A DNA stretch of 64,000 bases from Thermococcus guaymasensis DSM 11113. GTDB lineage: Archaea > Methanobacteriota_B > Thermococci > Thermococcales > Thermococcaceae. The position numbers were made by a program, and so were the translations under genes. The notes beneath the pieces were generated by a model, which was not told the DNA's origin, made no database searches, and saw only the letters and a program-made list of their open reading frames with translations. This document shows, piece by piece, positions 28,572 through 64,000 of the stretch. The stretch is from contig NZ_CP007140.1 of NCBI RefSeq assembly GCF_000816105.1, positions 744,001 through 808,000 on the forward strand. The letters run 5' to 3'. How positions within the stretch are numbered: position 1 is the stretch's first letter; each line of letters opens with the position of its first letter.

Positions 28572-29414
28572 ATGGCAATGATACGCTCCCTGTGGGTATT
28601 TCATTAGGATCTAATAGTCCTACTGCTCTCCCTTGGAATAGTCGCGCTACTTCTCTCAATAGGGAAGAACACGAAAAAGAACCTCGGGAGCAGATACTTC
28701 ATTCTGAGCTTCAACGCTCTCGTGGCTTCATTTATTTTAGTGGGTATCGCCGAGTTCATTGGCATTCTCCTGAGAACAGATGTACTCTGGGGAAATGAAG
28801 CGATGATGGACATTAGATCAGTGATCTTGACTCTCGGGGCTCTGCTCCTCTTCGTATCCTCTGTAATGGTGTACCTACCCTTTTCCCGCAACGAGTACAC
28901 GATAGTTCCAGTTCCAATAGTTACTGAACCCATGAACCCTTCAATCTACGGAGCTTACTGGGGAAGCGGAAGCGAGTCCTCAAGGGCATTCCTAAAGCTC
29001 GTAAAAAGTCTTCGCCTTCCGGCTATAGTGCTGAGCAGGGATCCACCGGAGGTTTTTCGTTCCAAGCTTGGCCTGAAGCTCGTCCCAGTCGTCTGGATAT
29101 CCAAGGTAAACCACGAGGATGCAGTTGATCCAAGGAGGCTTCCATACCTCCTCGACCGAATGCTCAACTTCCTGCAATCCACCGAGACTGACAAGGTCAT
29201 TTACATTGACTGCCTGGAGTACCTAATGCTCGAAAACGGGAACGAGGCTATCCCCAAGTTCGTGACGAAGCTCAAGGATCTAGCGTCCCTGCACAGGGGG
29301 ATAGTGATAATCAACCTCGAAAAGAGCGCCATCGACGAGAAAACGTACCACGTACTTGCCTCCGAGCTCAGACCCGTTGAAGAGCTTGAGAAGATGCTTT
29401 CCGAAGGGCACTAA
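28572..29414 (+). pseudogene. DUF835-domain membrane protein with in-frame TAG near its start
   Basis: A membrane helix region followed by a cytoplasmic DUF835 domain (VPIVTEPMNPSIYGAYWGSG ... VIYIDCLEYLMLENG). ATGs at 28572 and 28578 are in frame with the body, but codon 12 from the first is TAG (28605-28607). After it the frame continues without interruption (DLIVLLLSLGIVALLLSIGK...), clearly the original first helix. No start codon is available until GTG 28722, which would give 230 residues lacking the first helix. The TnpB right end supplies the GGAGG before the ATG. Either an inactivated gene or one with a shortened product. Confidence 0.7.
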
Positions 29415-29552
29415 CGAGGGGAGAACACACTCAATGACCTAAAGTTCAAATGCAAAATCCCAGCAAAATAACCACTCAAAACGTATGCCAACTTTGATGA
29501 AACCTCACACAACTAAAGTGGTCTCGCTAGAGTTTTGTCAAAAGCGTTGTTC

Positions 29553-30411: not shown

Positions 30412-31164
30412 TCACCTCATCTCGTTCCATTCTTTGTTACCGTACCGTTCCTCCACCAGTTCCTCCGCGAGTTCGAGCTCGTAGTCTGTGAGCTCGCCCT
30501 CCTCAAGCTCGAATGCGTTGAAAAAGCTCTCCTTTAAAAGCTCGTAGGCCTCCCAGCGGTTCAGCTTTATTCCCTCGCGCTCAAGGGTTGTGACGCGCTC
30601 CCAGATGCTCGAAACGCCCTTGTCAGCAAGCTTTGCCTTCGAAACGCGGAGAACTTTACCAAGCACGTCAACGCGCGTCGCGTACATGAAGGTGCCGTGC
30701 TGGAGTATTACTCCCTTCCTCCTCGTCTGTGCCGAACCGCTTATCTTCTTCCCGTTGGCTACGATGTCGTTCAGGCCGGAAAAGCCTGCCGCAAGACCGA
30801 GCTCTTTCAGGGCATCAACGAGAGGGCCAGCCAGGTAGCGGTAGCTGCTCTCAACGTTCCTCAGCGCAGGGTGCAGGTCTTCACCCACAACAACGGAGTA
30901 GGTTATCTCACCAAACTCGTCGTGGAACACCGCACCGCCACCGGTAATCCTGCGGACAACGGGGATGCCGAGGCGCCTGGCTTCCTCAAGGTTGACGTCG
31001 TGGATGACGCTCTGGAACCTGCCAATCGTCACGGAGCTCGGTGAAAAGGTGTACAGCCTGACGGTGTCGGGGGCTTTCCCCTCTATCCTGGCGCGCATTA
31101 TGGCCTCGTCTATAGCCATCTGGACTTCCGGCCTTGCAACGATGAGCGGGATAAAGCGCATCAT
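30412..31164 (-). CDS. lplA: Lipoate-protein ligase A family protein
   Basis: 250-residue BPL/LPL catalytic domain. Signature RRITGGGAVFHDEFGEITYSVV (residues about 74-95), SVTIGRFQSV and the catalytic Lys in NDIVANGKKISGSAQTRRKG are present. It activates lipoate (or octanoate) and attaches it to lipoyl-domain proteins; archaeal LplA often needs a separate C-terminal partner (LplB), which I do not see here. Two tandem ATGs (31164, 31161) are possible starts. Confidence 0.88.
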   Translation of the reverse strand: MMRFIPLIVARPEVQMAIDEAIMRARIEGKAPDTVRLYTFSPSSVTIGRFQSVIHDVNLEEARRLGIPVVRRITGGGAVFHDEFGEITYSVVVGEDLHPALRNVESSYRYLAGPLVDALKELGLAAGFSGLNDIVANGKKISGSAQTRRKGVILQHGTFMYATRVDVLGKVLRVSKAKLADKGVSSIWERVTTLEREGIKLNRWEAYELLKESFFNAFELEEGELTDYELELAEELVEERYGNKEWNEMR

Positions 31165-31204
31165 TCAAACCACCAGAGTTAAAAGGTTCAACGAGTTTTT
31201 AAGC

Positions 31205-31268
31205 CCAGCGATGATGACGCCCAAGCCCTTCCGAGGGGACGATGAGGAGAGCGGTCACCACTGAGCAA
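31205..31268 (+). ncRNA. Box C/D sRNA (predicted)
   Basis: Box C ATGATGA at 31211-31217, D'-like CCGA at 31231-31234, C'-like GATGAGG at 31241-31247 and box D CTGA at 31261-31264, with guide-length spacers of about 13 nt between C and D' and between C' and D. Short GC/GC flanks could close the terminal stem. A TTAAAA box near 31178 is at the right distance. D'/C' are degenerate, as is common. Targets not assigned. Confidence 0.68.
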
Positions 31269-31405
31269 GCTCTGCTCGTGCGAAGCCCGCCAAGAATTTT
31301 TTCCTTTATAGGACAATGGATGGGAGCCACGTTGCAATAAGGTAGTCTCGTCCGGCAGAGTTGCACTAAACTTTATAAGCCTCTTCTCAGCTCTTCATAA
31401 CGGGC

Positions 31406-31481
31406 AGCCCCGTGGTGTAGCGGCCAAGCATGCGGGACTTTGGATCCCGCGACCCGGGTTCGAATCCCGGCGGGGCTACCA
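31406..31481 (+). tRNA. tRNA-Gln (TTG)
   Basis: Cloverleaf with acceptor AGCCCCG/CGGGGCT, anticodon loop CTTTGGA (anticodon TTG), T arm CCCGG/CCGGG containing GTTCGAAT, and encoded CCA at 31479-31481. TATA box CTTTATAAG at about 31371-31379. Confidence 0.95.
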
Positions 31482-56989: not shown

Positions 56990-57006
56990 ACCGTTTATAA
57001 GGGTTC
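56990..57006. promoter_or_regulatory. Shared divergent TATA for helical-repeat and DUF531 genes
   Basis: CCGTTTATAAGGG can be read both ways (leftward CCCTTATAAACGG). Each gene start is about 30-35 nt away, so both transcripts would have minimal leaders and must compete for the same element. Confidence 0.5.
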
Positions 57007-57030
57007 CCGGAAACTGTTCACGGTGGTGAT

Positions 57031-57582
57031 ATGCTGACCCTTGCCCTATATAACACATACGACGCTCGAAAGCTCCACGAGGCCCATCTGAGGGCAATAG
57101 CGAGGGCCGGCCCGATAGCCCATGCTTTCGGCTTTCATCTCGCTTTAGTGGGGTTCCCGCTGAAGGGCAAGCCATTGGACGTCGCACAGGAGGTTTCCGC
57201 CCACACTACGATCGGAGAGGGCGGAACCTACCTTTTGGAGCTTGCCGAGAAAAACCGCTTCCACCTGCTGGACTTCCCAAAAAAGGGCTTTCCCGCCCAG
57301 TTTGGGACGGCTGTAGCAACCACTAGAAAACCTTTGGAAGAAAAGGAGATAACACCACTCGAACTCGCGGAAAGGGCCCTTTCCGGTGAGAGCTTCCTCC
57401 TCCTGGTCGGCCTCGGCAGGCACGGCCTTCCGAGAGAAATCTTTAAGTTGGCACGGTATCACATGGATATAACGGGCAAGCGGATAAGTCTTGAGACATG
57501 CACTGCGATAGGTGCAATCCCAGCTAAGATCACAACTCTAATGGAGGCGCTGAGATGGACGAAGGCTGGAAAAAAGACGTAG
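57031..57582 (+). CDS. DUF531 family protein
   Basis: 183-residue archaeal protein of unknown function (COG1531). Characteristic blocks: ALYNTYDARKLHEAHLRAIARAGPIAHAFGFHLALVGFP and LLVGLGRHGLPREIFKLARYHMDITGKRISLETCTAIGAIP; the late glycine-rich loop pattern resembles SPOUT-type RNA methyltransferases, which is inference. ATG 57031 follows GGTGGTGAT. Overlaps the signal peptidase gene by 28 nt. Confidence 0.85.
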   Translation: MLTLALYNTYDARKLHEAHLRAIARAGPIAHAFGFHLALVGFPLKGKPLDVAQEVSAHTTIGEGGTYLLELAEKNRFHLLDFPKKGFPAQFGTAVATTRKPLEEKEITPLELAERALSGESFLLLVGLGRHGLPREIFKLARYHMDITGKRISLETCTAIGAIPAKITTLMEALRWTKAGKKT

Positions 57583-58025
57583 CGTGGTTTTTTATCGCAA
57601 TCTTAATAGTCGCGGGGATTAACTATGGCCTTAAACTAGTTATGGGCACGGACTCACCCCTCGTTATTGTCATAAGCGGCTCGATGGAGCCCGTTTTCTA
57701 TAGGGGGGACGTTGTCCTGCTCAAGTCAGCGTCCCCGGAGGACATCCACGTGGGTGATGTCATTGTATACAATGCCCCCTCGTACAGTTATCCAATAATC
57801 CACAGGGTACGGGAGATAAAGACCGTCAATCTCGGGGGAAAACTTGAGAAGTGCTTCGTCACGTGGGGCGATAACAACCCGGTACCGGACTGGAGCGAAT
57901 ACCGGCTCTATCCAACTCCCTATGGCGGCGTTCCCTGCGTCCCCTACTACGCGGTGGAGGCCAAAGCGGTCATGGTTTTCCCCAAGATCGGCCTTATTCC
58001 CCTCTGGATCAGGGAGCACCTGTGA
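57555..58025 (+). CDS. Type I signal peptidase (archaeal, S26B)
   Basis: 156 residues: N-terminal membrane anchor (VAWFFIAILIVAGINYGLKLV), catalytic Ser in VISGSMEPVFYRGD (about residue 42), box C GDVIVYN and the archaeal/ER-type His in YPIIHRVREI instead of a lysine, then FVTWGDNNPVPD box E with aspartates. It removes signal peptides outside the membrane, for example from the secreted proteins at 10-11 kb and 36-38 kb. Starts within the DUF531 gene, so translation is coupled. Confidence 0.92.
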   Translation: MDEGWKKDVAWFFIAILIVAGINYGLKLVMGTDSPLVIVISGSMEPVFYRGDVVLLKSASPEDIHVGDVIVYNAPSYSYPIIHRVREIKTVNLGGKLEKCFVTWGDNNPVPDWSEYRLYPTPYGGVPCVPYYAVEAKAVMVFPKIGLIPLWIREHL

Positions 58026-58505
58026 TGAAGAGAGGGGGGCGTTTCTGCCCTCCCCTTACTCTCAAACCCCTGATGCGGGGTTTCACCCCACGTGGGAAAC
58101 TTTGCTGGGCAAAGTTTCATCAAAGCCGGCATGCCGTATTAGAACAGCAATTTTTCAAGGGGTTTGAAAGAAAATCCGTGCGGATTTTCAAGTGTGTTTC
58201 TTCCTGTTAGCGCCCTTCGGGCGCCTTCTTTGAGTAAAACACCTTCGAAACATTAGTCTGTCCAAACCAAAACCCGACCAAGAGCACCCATCTATCAAGG
58301 CATGCCACCCACTCACATCCCTTGACGCAGTAAGAACTTTTTGATCAAGCTTTACACAAGCAAAGCTTGCTGGGGATCTAACGCCCCCCCAGGATTTTGG
58401 TCGCGCAAAGCTTGATCGAGTTAGCGACCGCTTCTCAATTGTGCCCCTACAGCCAGAACCGATATCCATAAAAATTTGAAGTGACTTCTTTTGTTGGAGA
58501 TAATT
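58026..58505 (+). repeat. Non-coding hairpin array upstream of the defence operon
   Basis: A 480-nt gene-free stretch packed with perfect stem-loops: GGGG-TTTCA-CCCC (58077-58089), GAAACTTTGC-TGG-GCAAAGTTTC (58096-58118), the palindrome CGGCATGCCG (58127-58136), GAAAATCC-GTGC-GGATTTTC (58170-58189), GCGCCC-TTC-GGGCGC (58210-58224), and toward the end AAGCTTT/AAAGCTT words (58347-58370) and GGTCGC/GCGACC (about 58399-58428). A TATA-like CATAAAAATTTG at about 58468 may drive mazG. It shares the TTTCA-loop hairpin with the 18-kb insert. Confidence 0.7.
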
Positions 58506-58868
58506 ATGGCAACTATACATGAATTGACCTCAAAGATAGTTAAGTTTAGGGATGAAAGGGACTGGAATAAATATCACACCCCGCGAAATCTAGCAATATC
58601 TCTCGTGGTAGAACTTGGAGAACTCTTAGAACATTTCCAGTGGAAAAATGACGATGAAATATTGAAACTTGCTCAGAAGCCGGATAAGAGAGAAAAAATT
58701 GAAGAAGAGCTCGCTGATGTGGCTATATATCTGTTTCTGTTGGCAAATGAACTGAGTATTGACCTTGAAACAGCTATTTTAAACAAAATCAAGAAAAATG
58801 AAGAGAAATATCCCGTAGATTTAGTCAAGGGGAAATATGTAAAATACACGGAGTTGAGGAGAAAATGA
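58506..58868 (+). CDS. MazG-family nucleotide pyrophosphohydrolase
   Basis: 120-residue all-alpha NTP pyrophosphatase of the iMazG/dCTPP1 type. The metal site is the classical ExxE-(n)-ExxD pair: VVELGELLEHFQW (about residue 38) and EELADVAIYLFLL (about 68). Such enzymes hydrolyse (d)NTPs to (d)NMPs; single-domain versions often prefer modified or pyrimidine dNTPs. ATG 58506 follows TTGGAGATAATT. Its stop overlaps the next ATG (ATGA). Clearly AT-richer than the core genes, with AAA/ATA-rich codons. Confidence 0.87.
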   Translation: MATIHELTSKIVKFRDERDWNKYHTPRNLAISLVVELGELLEHFQWKNDDEILKLAQKPDKREKIEEELADVAIYLFLLANELSIDLETAILNKIKKNEEKYPVDLVKGKYVKYTELRRK

Positions 58869-60337
58869 CCGTGTGGATTGTAGCTGCCGCAGGACCATCT
58901 CCCACTGAACATTTAGAAAGGACTATAAAGAACCCTGTTCCATTTGAAGAGATTGAACAGAACATCTCCAATAAAGATGAGCTTCAAAAACTTGTAGAAG
59001 CAGCGGGGAAGGGCCCCTACTACCTTTGGGGTGCACTCCCCGGAAAGAACAATGAGAGCTACTGGCTCCGGATGTCCCGGGGGGACATCGCACTCTTTTA
59101 TGTGAAAGGCAAGAAATTTGGATATTGGACAAAAATACTACATAAACTGAGAGACAAGAGGTTGGCAAAATTCCTTTGGGGAACAGATAGTTACGGACAG
59201 ACATGGGAGCTGATATATTTCTTAGACAAGCCAAAGGAAATTAACTTAACCCTCCAAGAATTTAATTTAGAACATTGTTATAGTCTAAATTTTAAGCCTC
59301 AAGGTCTGACCCCCATAAGAGATGAAGCAATACAGAGAATTGAACTGAAATATGGGTCTTATGAGAGATTCCTAAAACGATATGAAATTCGTAGTAAGCC
59401 GGCATATGTTCAACTAGTCGAATCCCTTTATTCTAGAGAAATTAATATTGCCTTCCGCGAGATGCTACGGGGCAGGAATATTATTTTCTATGGGCCTCCT
59501 GGAAGTGGAAAGACTATTTTGGCTAAGATACTGGCCGAAAAATATTCCAGTTATGTAGGCGGTAACGGATATTTACTATATACCGTCCACAGCGGTACGG
59601 ATTTCTTTGATCTCGTGGCAAGGATAACCCCCCAAACAAATGATGAAGGAGTTTTGTACTATAAAAAAGAACCAAGATACCTGATACACGCTCTTATTGG
59701 AAAGAAAGTTTTGATATTAGATGAGATAAACAGGACTCAAATTGATACGGCACTCGGTATATTCTTCACCTATCTCGAAAAAGAGCACAGAATACAGGAT
59801 TTAGAAACCATAATGCACATTATTCAGGAGGAGAGCGGTATTACCATCCAGAAAGACGAGTTAAAAGATGCCCTGGAGTTTTTCAGGATTATAGGAACAT
59901 TAAATATCTACGACAAAACATTTCTGTTTAAACTTGGGGATGCTCTTAGACGGAGGTTTAGATTCATAGAAATAACAACGACTAAAGATGTCATCAAATA
60001 TTTGAGCCAAAACTTTAACGAATTCCTACAGGTCATTGGATACAACGCGTCGAACGAGATCAAATATGGGATTGCATGGGCTTTGTTCTCAATATTTTCA
60101 GAGATCAACAATATAAAGGAGCTCGGCATTGGAATACTGAAGGACCTGATATTGTTCTCAGAAAATTTCGAGAAACCCGAAGAGGCTATAGAAAACTCCG
60201 TAATAAGCATTATCCTGCCGTTCTTTGAAAATGACATTGGATTTAGAGAAGTATCCAAAGTACTCGAGAGACACGAGCTATATCGGGCCCAAAATGTTTT
60301 GGAGAGGCTGAATTATGCCTTCAAGGCGTTTGAATAG
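58865..60337 (+). CDS. McrB-like AAA+ GTPase with N-terminal PUA/EVE-like reader domain
   Basis: 490 residues. Residues about 1-150 look like an EVE/YTH (PUA superfamily) modified-base reader: WLRMSRGDIALFYVKGKKFG and WELIYFLDKPKEI. The motor has Walker A GPPGSGKTILAKIL (about 209), Walker B VLILDEINR (about 284) and the McrB signature region GTLNIYDKT (about 346) followed by DALRRRFRF arginines. The usual MNxxDRS reads LNIYDKT, a degenerate form. In McrBC systems McrB recognises modified DNA and its GTPase powers translocation. Overlaps both neighbours, so it is one operon; AT-rich. Confidence 0.88.
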   Translation: MTVWIVAAAGPSPTEHLERTIKNPVPFEEIEQNISNKDELQKLVEAAGKGPYYLWGALPGKNNESYWLRMSRGDIALFYVKGKKFGYWTKILHKLRDKRLAKFLWGTDSYGQTWELIYFLDKPKEINLTLQEFNLEHCYSLNFKPQGLTPIRDEAIQRIELKYGSYERFLKRYEIRSKPAYVQLVESLYSREINIAFREMLRGRNIIFYGPPGSGKTILAKILAEKYSSYVGGNGYLLYTVHSGTDFFDLVARITPQTNDEGVLYYKKEPRYLIHALIGKKVLILDEINRTQIDTALGIFFTYLEKEHRIQDLETIMHIIQEESGITIQKDELKDALEFFRIIGTLNIYDKTFLFKLGDALRRRFRFIEITTTKDVIKYLSQNFNEFLQVIGYNASNEIKYGIAWALFSIFSEINNIKELGIGILKDLILFSENFEKPEEAIENSVISIILPFFENDIGFREVSKVLERHELYRAQNVLERLNYAFKAFE

Positions 60338-61817
60338 CCCACATCCTATCTGGGACAATGACTACACCATCCCCTTGAAGTTGCTAGACGTAGTGAAGAT
60401 TAACGGAAAACCTTTGAAAGAGTTCGCCAAATCGAACAGGATAAAAATTGCAAACGAAGCAGTTACAATCTCACTCAGGGACTTATTTGGGACATTAATC
60501 ATAGAAAAGCCTCATGAAACTCGCAGTTTTCTTGTAATCCCCCATAAACTGTTCCCTCAAGAATGCAGTCCAGAGATAGGAAGTGAGTTCATTCGAAATC
60601 GAGTGCTTCAGGATATTGGGGATTTTATCTCATTCATTGTAAAAGAGGTCAGGGACATACAGGCACTTTACGTATTCAAAATTGTAATGAAAGAATATGA
60701 GAGGAGTGTTTACTTCCTCGTTGTGACTTTAGAACATTATTTGAAATTGCTAGAAGAGCAAGTTACGAGGCTCTTTCTGCGTGGACCAATTCACAAAGAA
60801 ACCTTAACAATGCCCTCACAATTCGGTTCTGGGGTTAAACACTCCAACTCTAGCCTAGTTTCACCATACCTGCTATTCAACAAGCGCTCTGTTACGTACG
60901 ATACTATGTTAAATAGGATGCTATTTCAGTCTTTTTACTACGTGGTTATTGAAAGTGAAATTTTAAAACATGTTCTAACTGATAAAGACTTGCTAAAAAG
61001 AGTCAATGCATTGCAAAGTCGTGCCTTAAAACTCATTGAAGGATATCACCTCTGGGAATTCTTTTGTGAAGCCCCCCAAAACCTAGTGTTAATTCAAGAA
61101 CGCCTTACTACACAGCAGAACCCCCATTATGCAGAAGTCTTCAGAGTCTACCGGGAGCTTGTAAAGATAGTATTTTCCAAGACGATTCTCAAAAACATCG
61201 AAGAGGGTATCCAATACCCATTATTAAACTTTGCAACGATTTATGAAACATGGGCAGTTTGGAGGATTATTAAAGGCCTCATAGAACGAGGTTTCAAAAT
61301 CTCAGATGAAGGGATAGTTCTAAATGACCAGGAAAAGTTCAACAGAAGGACTAAGGCAATATTTAGATTGGAACAGGGAGACTTAATAATAACGGTTGTT
61401 TGGGAGTTGAAATTTAAACCTGAAACAGACTCTCTTTACATGGGGAGCCTGATGAAGCTTATCAGATATGTTAATAAAATCCCAATCAAGCCAGATTTAG
61501 TGATTTTAGTTTCTAAGAAGGGGGATAACACTCCCAAAAAGGTTCTGTTAGGAGATGTAAAGTTTAGAATTGACAAGAATAACCGTCTTCCACCGCTAGA
61601 AACATTGTATAAAGTTCTAGGATATGTCGTTGACTTAGGAAATTTTGACCATTTTAAAGGAGCTTCTATTGAAGGAATGTTAATCTATCCTGGCAGAATT
61701 GAAATGCTCAAAATACCAATAATCAAGCCAGAAAAGGGCAAAGATGTGCTTTATGTAAATTTGTTGCCACTGAATAGTGAATCATTTGAAATCAACATTG
61801 TAAAGCTTCTTGAATAG
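60315..61817 (+). CDS. McrC-like PD-(D/E)xK nuclease subunit
   Basis: 500 residues, longer than E. coli McrC (about 348). The N-terminal part resembles the DUF2357-type beta domain; the C-terminal nuclease shows YETWAVWRI (conserved in McrC/DUF2357), KPDLVILVS for the metal Asp, LLGDVKFRI (about residue 412) for the D-x-K motif and ETLYKVLGYVVD. The catalytic set appears complete. ATG 60315 lies 23 nt inside mcrB. With McrB it should form the nuclease complex of a type IV restriction system. Confidence 0.82.
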   Translation: MPSRRLNSPHPIWDNDYTIPLKLLDVVKINGKPLKEFAKSNRIKIANEAVTISLRDLFGTLIIEKPHETRSFLVIPHKLFPQECSPEIGSEFIRNRVLQDIGDFISFIVKEVRDIQALYVFKIVMKEYERSVYFLVVTLEHYLKLLEEQVTRLFLRGPIHKETLTMPSQFGSGVKHSNSSLVSPYLLFNKRSVTYDTMLNRMLFQSFYYVVIESEILKHVLTDKDLLKRVNALQSRALKLIEGYHLWEFFCEAPQNLVLIQERLTTQQNPHYAEVFRVYRELVKIVFSKTILKNIEEGIQYPLLNFATIYETWAVWRIIKGLIERGFKISDEGIVLNDQEKFNRRTKAIFRLEQGDLIITVVWELKFKPETDSLYMGSLMKLIRYVNKIPIKPDLVILVSKKGDNTPKKVLLGDVKFRIDKNNRLPPLETLYKVLGYVVDLGNFDHFKGASIEGMLIYPGRIEMLKIPIIKPEKGKDVLYVNLLPLNSESFEINIVKLLE

Positions 61818-61844
61818 TGAGTATACCCACCCCCGCAAACCCCC

Positions 61845-62531
61845 TTAAAACGCAAACTCCTCCACTCTGAATTCGTCCAACACCCTCTCGAAGTCGTTCT
61901 CAGGAGCATAGACGAAGCCACATTTGGGACACTTCAAAACGCCGTTCTCCTCGCTCAGCGGGGAGAAACAGACCGGACAGCGGTACTCCTCGCGCCTCAG
62001 CGAGTCATAAACCTCATCCATCATGACGAGCAGGTTGAGCTCGCTCTCCCAGTCCTCGTGGAGCATGCCCCAGTAGGGGATCTCGATGGGGTAGAAGTCT
62101 TCAAGGATCAAGGCCCTAATCCCTATCCCCCTAACCCCCGGTGGAAGCTTACCGGCGGGTTCTATGCTGACAACATACTGGTCATAGAACTCTATGTTCT
62201 CGGCACGAACCGTCAGGCCCCTCGAAAGCCTTGAGCGGAGGGGGACGAGCTGGAGGAAAAGGTTTTCCCTCTCGACGTCCCAGCTCGCGCTTATTGAAAC
62301 GCCCTTCTTCGTGAAGAACTGGGTAATGTAACGGTCGTCTCTCTCCTCCCCCACCAAGGAGAACCCAAGCTTCCTCATTGCCCTTCCGAGAAAGTTCGGC
62401 CTGGGGAGCTTCTGGTAGTTAATCAGGTACTCCCCAATCCACCCCGCCAATGGCATGGAGTACCCTATGAAAGCCTGCCTCTCGACGCGCAGGTAGGCAA
62501 CGCTGGGAAGGAGCTTGAACTGGTCGAGCAT
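61845..62531 (-). CDS. Zinc-ribbon protein of unknown function
   Basis: 228 residues. The N-terminal 175 residues form an unrecognised alpha/beta domain (LDQFKLLPSVAYLRVERQAF, RALILEDFYPIEIPYWGML); the C-terminus has a zinc ribbon CPVCFSPL ... LKCPKCGFVY followed by an acidic helix. Start at ATG 62531; a TTG one codon earlier is possible. GC-rich like the core genome, so the transferred segment ends before this gene. It lies directly downstream of polC on the same strand. Confidence 0.75.
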   Translation of the reverse strand: MLDQFKLLPSVAYLRVERQAFIGYSMPLAGWIGEYLINYQKLPRPNFLGRAMRKLGFSLVGEERDDRYITQFFTKKGVSISASWDVERENLFLQLVPLRSRLSRGLTVRAENIEFYDQYVVSIEPAGKLPPGVRGIGIRALILEDFYPIEIPYWGMLHEDWESELNLLVMMDEVYDSLRREEYRCPVCFSPLSEENGVLKCPKCGFVYAPENDFERVLDEFRVEEFAF

Positions 62532-62573
62532 CAAAGAAAGAGCGACATAATGATATATATGATTAACGGAAAA

Positions 62574-64000
62574 TTAAGGGCCGAAAAACTTGTCGAGACT
62601 TATACCCTTTCTCTTCTTCTTGGCCTTCGCCTTCTCTTTCTTGACGTCCTTCGCAAGACTTTCAGAGGGCTTTTTCCCGGCCCGGACAGGTTTCTCTTTC
62701 TTCCCAGCGCTTATACCGGACTTCTTCGTCGTCCCATTCTTTCCATTAAAGCCATCGAGGTAGCCGTTCTTGCCGTTGGACGTGCCCGTGCGCTCCTTAA
62801 TCATCCTCTCGCAGACGTCCGCCGAGAAGCCGAGCAGAGTTCTCTGCTTTTCCGGCAAAACGGTCTCAAAGAGCGTCTTTATGTCCTTCTCCGTCAGGCA
62901 AATCCTCTGCCTCGTGTAGTCCTTGACGTTGTATCTTGTGACCAGCATCTTAGCCGTCGGGAGGTACTTTTCAACCGCACCCTTGCTCACCGTCAGGACT
63001 ATCTTGCCGCCGCACTTCGGACAGCGCCCGGTGAGCGGGGGCCTTCTGTATTTGGTGTTGCACTTCACACAGCGGAACTCCTGCCTCGTGAAGCTCCTCA
63101 GGTTGCCCCTCAGGTCGGGAATCAGGTGGGAGTTGAGTATGGTTTCCGCAACGTGGTGCTCGTCAACAGCCCTTATGCGCTCTGCCAGGGCCAACTGGCG
63201 CTCCACCTTCTCGACCATGTCACCGAGCTGTTTGTACAGGCTCATCTTCGGGCCGAGGCCGATGTCGTCCGTATCGTGGGTGAACTTTATGCCCTCGTAC
63301 ATCTCGGGCTTTCCGAGACGGTCTTCAACGCGCTCGATGAACTTAACCTCCTTCGGGGACTTCATCTCGTAGGTGGCTTTGTAAAATTCCAGCGGATAAT
63401 AGCGGACTACGTCCATGTTGTGGACCTCGCTGTCAACCTCGCGCGGGTCAAGCCTTGTCGTAACGACCAGCGGGGCGTCCATCTTACCGCCGCGTTTTTC
63501 GGGCAAATAGTAACGGGAAAAGTTCAATAATGCATCCATAAGTAACATTACACTATCCTCATCCCCGTCGCAGTTGCGTCTTTTAGCGGCATGGTAATAC
63601 GGGTGCGCATAGCCCACGAGAACGTCCGAGAAGCCGATTATTCTGCCGATGATTCCAGCTGAAGTGTGTGGAGCAAGGCCGATGACGAGGTGGCCGATCA
63701 AATCTTCCATCTTCTCCGCGTTGTAGAACCTCGGCAGGCCGTAGAACTTCTCAAGCAGGTCGTCAATGAAGCGCGCGACCTTGAGGAGGTATTTACCCGC
63801 CTCGTAGGACAGGATTATGTCCTGGACTTTCAGCTCGACTATCTGGTCGTCCCTTTCGAGGGGCTTGCCCTCGAAGTCATGCGTATACCCGAGTTCGCGA
63901 AGCTTTTCAACGCTGACCCCTATCTCCTTCGGCTTGAAGTGGGTTATCGGCGCATCGGTGGCGTCGAAGCGGATTGTGCCGTCCTTGAAAACGTAAACAT
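62574..64000 (-). CDS. polC: DNA polymerase D large subunit DP2 (partial, C-terminal part)
   Basis: The last roughly 475 codons of the catalytic subunit of the archaeal replicative polymerase D; the 5' part is beyond 64000. The catalytic motif [22 protein letters not shown] (given here split: KRRN then [11 protein letters not shown]) is present at 63570-63600. A zinc finger [10 protein letters not shown] ... CPKCGGK precedes a Lys-rich tail ending in SLDKFFGP, a PCNA-interacting peptide. The NCDGDED site, where several Pyrococcus DP2 genes carry an intein, is uninterrupted here. A Met at 63710 is internal, not a start. Confidence 0.95.

Follow-up and report, generated by a model that had tools for sequence, protein, structure and literature searches.

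The locus described here lies in a 64,000-nucleotide stretch of the Thermococcus guaymasensis DSM 11113 genome (contig NZ_CP007140.1), referred to below as the window (bases 744001-808000 of the 1.92-Mb genome). It consists of three overlapping open reading frames (ORFs) on the + strand, encoding a MazG-type pyrophosphohydrolase, an McrB-type motor protein with an N-terminal reader domain, and a nuclease subunit, McrC. The features of the locus, in window coordinates, are as follows.

58459..58478, + strand: BRE/TATA-like (B recognition element/TATA) promoter box CCGATATCCATAAAAATTTG, conserved upstream of mazG
58496-58499, + strand: GGAG Shine-Dalgarno-like site
58506..58868, + strand: mazG, a DCTPP1-like all-alpha deoxynucleoside triphosphate (dNTP) pyrophosphatase with a C-terminal KYTEL extension (PF12643, DCTPP1 structures)
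58865..60337, + strand: mcrB, a reader domain joined to an McrB-type AAA+ motor (AAA_5, 6ut5, E. coli McrB structures)
58865..59371, + strand: EVE/YTH-superfamily reader, McrB residues 1-169 (AlphaFold2, Foldseek)
59474..60334, + strand: AAA+ motor, with Walker A GPPGSGKT at 59492-59515 and the McrB signature N347-I-Y-D350 at 59903-59914
60315..61817, + strand: mcrC, the nuclease subunit, with putative PD-(D/E)xK residues P393-D394 and D414-V-K416 at 61491-61562 (PDDEXK_7)
58454..61811, + strand: stretch over which the window cassette and that of a relative, G031, are homologous at the DNA level, swapped reader excepted (blastn)
58049..58250, no strand assigned: repeat element rich in hairpins that belongs to the recipient locus, outside the cassette, and is shared with relatives
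61818..61842, no strand assigned: right edge of the inserted block, with homology to G027 (L108) restarting at 61842

The interval 58026-61817 opens with ~480 bp of noncoding DNA before mazG, which starts with an ATG at 58506 and has an in-frame TTG upstream at 58491. A first-pass annotation, made by a model from the sequence, had described three overlapping genes in a block that is much richer in AT than both flanks. The ORF coordinates confirm the overlaps, 4 nt (ATGA) between mazG and mcrB and 23 nt between mcrB and mcrC, and the composition holds as described, with GC contents of 0.36, 0.40, and 0.38 for mazG, mcrB, and mcrC in flanks of 50-57% GC and third-codon-position GC (GC3) values of 0.38, 0.43, and 0.40, against 0.68 for the flanking signal peptidase gene and 0.77 for the gene at 61845. 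Five of the six MazG-McrBC operons described below have a box of the form CGATAnnnATAAAA at the equivalent site 5' of mazG, and the sixth (L133) has a looser form; the box at 58459..58478 is listed as the putative promoter of mazG-mcrB-mcrC. No methyltransferase is encoded by the three operon genes, and the flanking genes code for a signal peptidase and an unrelated small protein. A PADLOC search returned no match for MazG and generic or weak matches for the other operon proteins.

The window MazG matches the MazG-like Pfam family PF12643 (E value, 4e-20) and the structures of human and mouse DCTPP1 (E value, 1e-27), in agreement with its first-pass assignment as a pyrophosphohydrolase. The acidic residues of the metal-binding ExxE...ExxD motif are present (E36, E39, E68, and D71) and are invariant in alignment A1. 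The nucleotide pocket of DCTPP1 is formed by H38, W47, E63, E66, W73, E95, D98, and Y102 (PMC4491611); these residues align to I11, W20, E36, E39, W46, E68, D71, and Y75 of the window MazG, so that seven of the eight are kept, the exception being I11 in place of H38. The preferred substrate of human DCTPP1 is 5-methyl-dCTP, and knockdown of the enzyme raised cellular 5-methyl-dCTP 2.8-fold and genomic DNA methylation ~3-fold (PMC4491611).

MazG homologues were found in 70 of 151 related genomes. Those that combine at least 65% identity with the KYTEL extension number five (G000, G031, G070, G055, and G083), and all of them lie directly 5' of mcrB; the extension was absent from each of the 34 stand-alone Thermococcaceae MazG copies examined. 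The window genome lacks the stand-alone MazG of ~60% identity that many relatives have, and G031 and G055 carry both the linked and the stand-alone kind.

For the N-terminal part of McrB (residues 1-169), an AlphaFold2 model built from 16 sequences had a pLDDT (predicted local distance difference test) score of 94.4 and a predicted template modeling (pTM) score of 0.87. Its best Protein Data Bank (PDB) matches in Foldseek were the N-terminal domain of Thermococcus gammatolerans McrB (6p0f/6p0g; E value, 1.3e-9; TM score, 0.72), followed, among the matches at an E value of ≤0.001, by EVE proteins (PH1033, THYN1 with 5-methylcytosine DNA, and VcaM4I), ASCH domains, and YTH domains. Since model and structural matches agree, the first-pass proposal of an EVE/YTH-like domain at this position is right, and we confidently predict that residues 1-169 fold as an EVE/YTH-type (PUA-like) reader. 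Sequence identity to the T. gammatolerans reader, which targets N6-methyladenine (6mA) (PMC7680126), is only 18 to 19%. W55, W105, W114, and Y118 are invariant in reader alignment A7 and are candidates for an aromatic cage around a modified base. A bromodomain identity was also considered for the reader family; the Pfam matches to it were weak (6 of 16 sequences; best E value, 3.5e-4) and are contradicted by the confident EVE/YTH fold.

The remainder of McrB is an AAA+ motor, as first annotated. It matches AAA_5 (E value, 2e-13), T. gammatolerans McrB 6ut5 (E value, 1e-13; the first aligned stretch, residues 15-269, takes in the reader), and E. coli McrB structures, with Walker A at residues 210-217 and the NxxD signature contained in LNIYDKT. 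The protein thus has the makeup of a type IV McrBC motor subunit, namely, an AAA+ motor with Walker A and NxxD and an N-terminal reader, the latter recognized by fold only. McrC matches PDDEXK_7 with an E value of 5e-5, just above the Pfam cutoff, and the residues P393-D394 and D414-V-K416 are invariant in L133 and present in L033. Searches with McrC against PDB sequences and genome contigs gave no match, and an AlphaFold2 model from two sequences reached a pLDDT of 42.7 and was not used. The PD-(D/E)xK assignment of the first-pass annotation is thus upheld by motif residues and family match and gains nothing from the fold model; McrC is divergent and appears to be a PDDEXK_7-type PD-(D/E)xK nuclease. 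This window-type (type A) McrC occurs in 2 of 151 related genomes, G000 and G031.

The association of MazG with McrBC extends beyond this strain, a point that the first-pass annotation had proposed to check. MazG lies directly upstream of McrBC in six operons, five in Thermococcaceae genomes (94 searched; all five MazGs abut mcrB) and one on a contig of a Thermotogaceae metagenome-assembled genome (MAG), L133. The gene order is constant and the genes overlap or abut in all six, which occupy different genomic sites and vary in McrB motor and in reader, with two types of each. L133 carries a complete window-type operon (MazG, 70% identity; McrB, 64% throughout; McrC, 47%), with overlaps of 4 nt and ~23 nt that match those of the window, on a MAG contig that is possibly misbinned. 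The G031 operon is close to that of the window in its motor (83%, residues 195-490), McrC (79 to 80%), and MazG (78%). Its McrB N-terminal domain is unrelated to the window reader (23%) and shares 39% identity with the reader of G070. This second reader, named QGTK (alignment A2), matches the EVE protein PH1033 (E value, 2e-4); strong matches to it were found in 4 of 94 Thermococcaceae genomes, each of them MazG linked, and a search of viral contigs found none. G070 and G083 have a canonical MNTADRS-type McrB. The G070 McrC is of the PF10117 type, and the G055 McrC is 66% identical to it. Across these operons, MazG is thus retained while reader and motor are exchanged. On a MazG tree calculated from a short alignment (116 columns), in which many forks are unresolved, the McrBC-linked MazGs form one group (support of 97/82 for the five and 86/69 with L133). 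As a control, 35 places with a PF10117-type McrC were identified in 101 relatives, and only the one in G055 is MazG linked; 20 such loci that were reread lack MazG, among them that of G015, which carries the T. gammatolerans McrB.

Furthermore, MazG accompanies reader nucleases of another kind. A MazG query of viral contigs led to prophages that encode, next after MazG, a 323- to 325-amino-acid (aa) protein composed of a window-type reader and an HNH-like nuclease part, and with the reader alone as the query, MazG was found immediately upstream at 12 of 13 assessable viral loci after removal of duplicates. The 348 Bacillota genomes sampled contained two readers, both with MazG directly upstream; in the prophage and Bacillota versions, MazG has ~110 to 130 aa and the reader-HNH protein ~325 aa. 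A nucleotide pyrophosphohydrolase is annotated upstream of reader-HNH genes on Streptomyces and Nocardiopsis plasmids, and a short (73-aa) MazG-like family protein is annotated in the same position in Peribacillus. On a Streptomyces albidoflavus plasmid, MazG is reduced to a 41-aa remnant beside the reader-HNH gene, and this remnant together with the short Peribacillus protein indicates that MazG can also be lost from such loci. The plasmid versions L251, L249, and L248, in which MazG is truncated or broken and the reader-HNH gene is intact, likewise suggest loss. A Parcubacterium contig (L148:6001-6803) shows a simpler pair, with MazG overlapping a stand-alone EVE-domain protein by 4 nt. These linkage rates apply within one reader clade rather than to all readers, and the reader alignments, A5 with MazG-linked members only and A6 with mostly linked ones, both favor relatives of the linked form. 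A reader search of 398 Pseudomonadota genomes and a search of E. coli genomes for reader-HNH relatives found none.

On the MazG tree, the reader-HNH label requires three changes, at least two of them forced by well-supported branches, which points to repeated recruitment of MazG to reader-HNH nucleases. Since MazG pairs with these as well, McrBC is not its only partner, and the unit that recurs is MazG together with a modified-base reader nuclease. Taken together, these pairings point to a partnership, widespread and not yet described, between MazG and enzymes that cut modified DNA.

Several further arrangements were observed around these families. MazG lies beside other HNH proteins in L212 and L221. 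On a Romboutsia contig (L139:6001-7567), the gene after MazG encodes a Pua-like/NOV_C (DUF3883-type) protein, and an HNH-type ORF lies a few kilobases upstream. In L201, a MazG and helicase-type pair adjoins a divergent McrBC. A pleomorphic provirus of Archaeoglobus profundus (L231; BK065154, 5908-9026) encodes a reader-McrB and a PD-(D/E)XK McrC, a virus-borne type IV system, and has no MazG with its McrBC.

With respect to the insertion site, the first-pass annotation had the block acquired behind a hairpin array. The inserted AT-rich block stands; the array is not part of it. The array itself, at 58049-58250, is genuine, the interval 58026-58490 having a fold z of -3.0, and the element is also present 3' of the signal peptidase gene in G015, G005, G031, G014, and G034, relatives that lack the cassette at that place. 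The hairpin array is therefore recipient-locus sequence that is older than the insertion. The element is ~70 to 85% conserved in several Thermococcaceae genomes, with partial copies elsewhere in the window genome, and an Rfam search of 57000-62600 assigned it to no family. In G027, the order is signal peptidase, lipoate ligase, tRNA, and the 61845-type gene; in the window, the genes for lipoate ligase and tRNA-Gln, which come after the signal peptidase gene in relatives, are inverted at 30415-31481, ~27 kb from the signal peptidase junction (58022-61845). Given this displacement, the cassette sits at one junction of a ~27-kb rearrangement, and an opposite-orientation hairpin copy near 29401-29503 could have mediated the inversion. 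The G031 cassette occupies a different site, beside a cobalamin adenosyltransferase gene, with flanking loci unlike those of the window, and a gene for an SSV-type archaeal integrase (PF16795; E value, 5e-49) lies ~0.5 kb from the cassette of G083. Downstream of the cassette (61845-64000 and L319) are a PolD large-subunit gene and, as judged from sequence, an apparent PolD small-subunit gene and an Orc1/Cdc6-like ORF, and because of these the cassette is close to a likely replication-origin region. The polD large-subunit gene seemed interrupted only because the window edge cuts it; in the genome, the ORF is complete, with 1294 aa.

How might the three proteins act together? We propose, at roughly even confidence, that these genes make up a type IV (modification-dependent) restriction cassette that moves horizontally and brings its own nucleotide-pool enzyme, MazG, for the removal of modified dNTPs. 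The single promoter-like box, the reader on an McrB motor, the PD-(D/E)xK McrC, and the recurrent coupling of MazG and reader with different effectors are supported by sequence, fold, or context. In this model, the reader would recognize a modified base on the DNA of an invader, and McrBC would then cut that DNA. MazG would hydrolyze the matching modified dNTP (a 5-modified dCTP is the likeliest) to its monophosphate and so bar it from DNA synthesis. Modified nucleotides that are made by a virus or released from destroyed invader DNA would be targets of the system's own nuclease once they entered the host chromosome, and MazG would keep them out. The same activity would deny a virus its modified precursor, as the first-pass annotation had suggested with its two-layer defense; that interpretation is partly supported, its biochemical steps being conjectural. 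Self-protection fits the same data as the purging of viral modified dNTPs, and we place it slightly ahead. If this is correct, the locus would answer a neglected question, namely, how a cell that breaks up modified DNA can keep the bases from being reused in its own chromosome, which it would then cut, and it would place a precursor-pool defense beside a DNA-level defense within one transcript. More tentatively, such a second layer may be general to the restriction of modified DNA, with MazG, recruited more than once, hydrolyzing the modified dNTP that matches the reader, so that the two specificities covary and the host's own genome is left unpoisoned.

Several observations weigh against this proposal. 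The nearest characterized reader, that of T. gammatolerans McrB, targets 6mA, a base normally made after replication and not via the dNTP pool. This weakens the idea of starvation; the 8-kb G015 locus with that McrB also has no mazG. Additionally, 27 matches to readers of the same fold in 247 Halobacteriota genomes were all without MazG. H38 of DCTPP1 contacts cytosine (PMC4491611), and because it is replaced by I11, the base specificity of the window MazG may differ. Finally, members of the MazG family have SLFN-g3/DUF2075-like helicases as partners still more frequently (~20 of 80 loci as judged by reading; Pfam confirmed one), and the helicase-type protein comes after MazG, often within a few bases (L142, L152, L159, L177, L182, L187, L192, L201, L209, L210, and others).

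This helicase association, the commonest MazG partnership in the bacterial loci that were fetched, would suit a broader role in which MazG serves many conflict systems by house cleaning or by degrading a nucleoside triphosphate signal and has no special relation to modified bases; MazG is also among the predicted, unvalidated defense domains of DefensePredictor (PMC13092281). We consider this rather unlikely, as MazG pairs specifically and repeatedly with reader nucleases of the EVE/YTH class and is kept through reader and motor swaps. An abortive response, in which MazG acts as a dCTPase or dNTPase that is triggered or licensed by McrB or nuclease engagement and starves the infected cell, is slightly harder still to credit. 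DCTPP1-like enzymes do hydrolyze dCTP and, more weakly, dATP, dTTP, and dUTP (PMC4491611), and the ATGA translational coupling of mazG and mcrB would suit complex formation. However, the window MazG has no obvious sensor or regulatory domain beyond its short C-terminal extension, and constant activity is tolerated, since close and presumably housekeeping homologues stand alone in many Thermococcaceae; moreover, nothing ties MazG activity to target recognition.

Two further explanations deny MazG a part in the system. It could be a housekeeping dNTP pyrophosphatase that was carried along, for example, in replacement of a lost genomic copy, and the missing stand-alone copy in the window genome would agree with this. 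Yet both kinds coexist in G031 and G055, the linked copies form a separate lineage with its own C-terminal extension, and linkage is also seen in unrelated bacteria, where other MazG lineages are involved, which makes such hitchhiking quite improbable. Defense genes tend to cluster, and the genes might be neighbors by chance in a defense island; that idea is next to negligible, being already contradicted by the recurrence of six operons of constant order, with overlapping or abutting genes and a common promoter-like box, at different sites.

In a literature search, we found no publication that links MazG with McrB or EVE-domain readers, and an earlier mention is possible in a 2015 comparative-genomic study cited in PMC13092281; papers that combine MazG with McrBC or with "modification-dependent" concern other subjects, as far as titles and abstracts tell. 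Among the closest known systems is the T. gammatolerans McrBC (6ut5 and 6p0f/6p0g), which likewise joins a YTH/EVE-type reader to an McrB AAA+ motor but has an MNTADRS signature and a PF10117-type McrC, whereas the window has LNIYDKT, a divergent PDDEXK_7-type McrC, and mazG. Membership in LlaJI, an McrBC-type restriction-modification system, was rejected, as the operon includes no cognate methyltransferase. CoCoNuT systems (PMC11090510) comprise McrBC relatives, some with YTH-like domains, along with coiled-coil, cold shock, HEPN, and Hsp70 parts that were not seen in the window proteins; membership was rejected, as the window McrB keeps NxxD, where CoCoNuT proteins have a variant GTPase motif, and its AAA+ part starts within ~35 residues of the reader, with no coiled-coil or RNA-related domain found. 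The EVE-HNH and YTH-like-HNH endonucleases (VcaM4I, 6yex) use the same reader superfamily to drive a nuclease and have MazG-linked forms in prophages and plasmids, but they carry the HNH effector in a single polypeptide with no motor, in contrast to the McrB and McrC of the window. For SauUSI type IV genes, a figure legend in PMC7641849 shows adjacent MutT-family genes and, like the window, places a pyrophosphohydrolase beside a modification-dependent nuclease; there the enzyme is a Nudix protein rather than MazG, the reader and nuclease are different, and that passage of the paper proposes no function. DCTPP1 (RS21-C6), a dCTP and 5-methyl-dCTP pyrophosphatase, shares its family, catalytic acidic residues, and C-terminal KYT(D/E)L with the window MazG, but it has H38 where the latter has I11 and is encoded by a house-cleaning gene rather than a gene of a restriction operon. 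In light of these comparisons, the coupling of MazG to a modified-base reader nuclease would represent a new form of type IV restriction, for which the genomic context makes a strong case and the mechanism is as proposed above.

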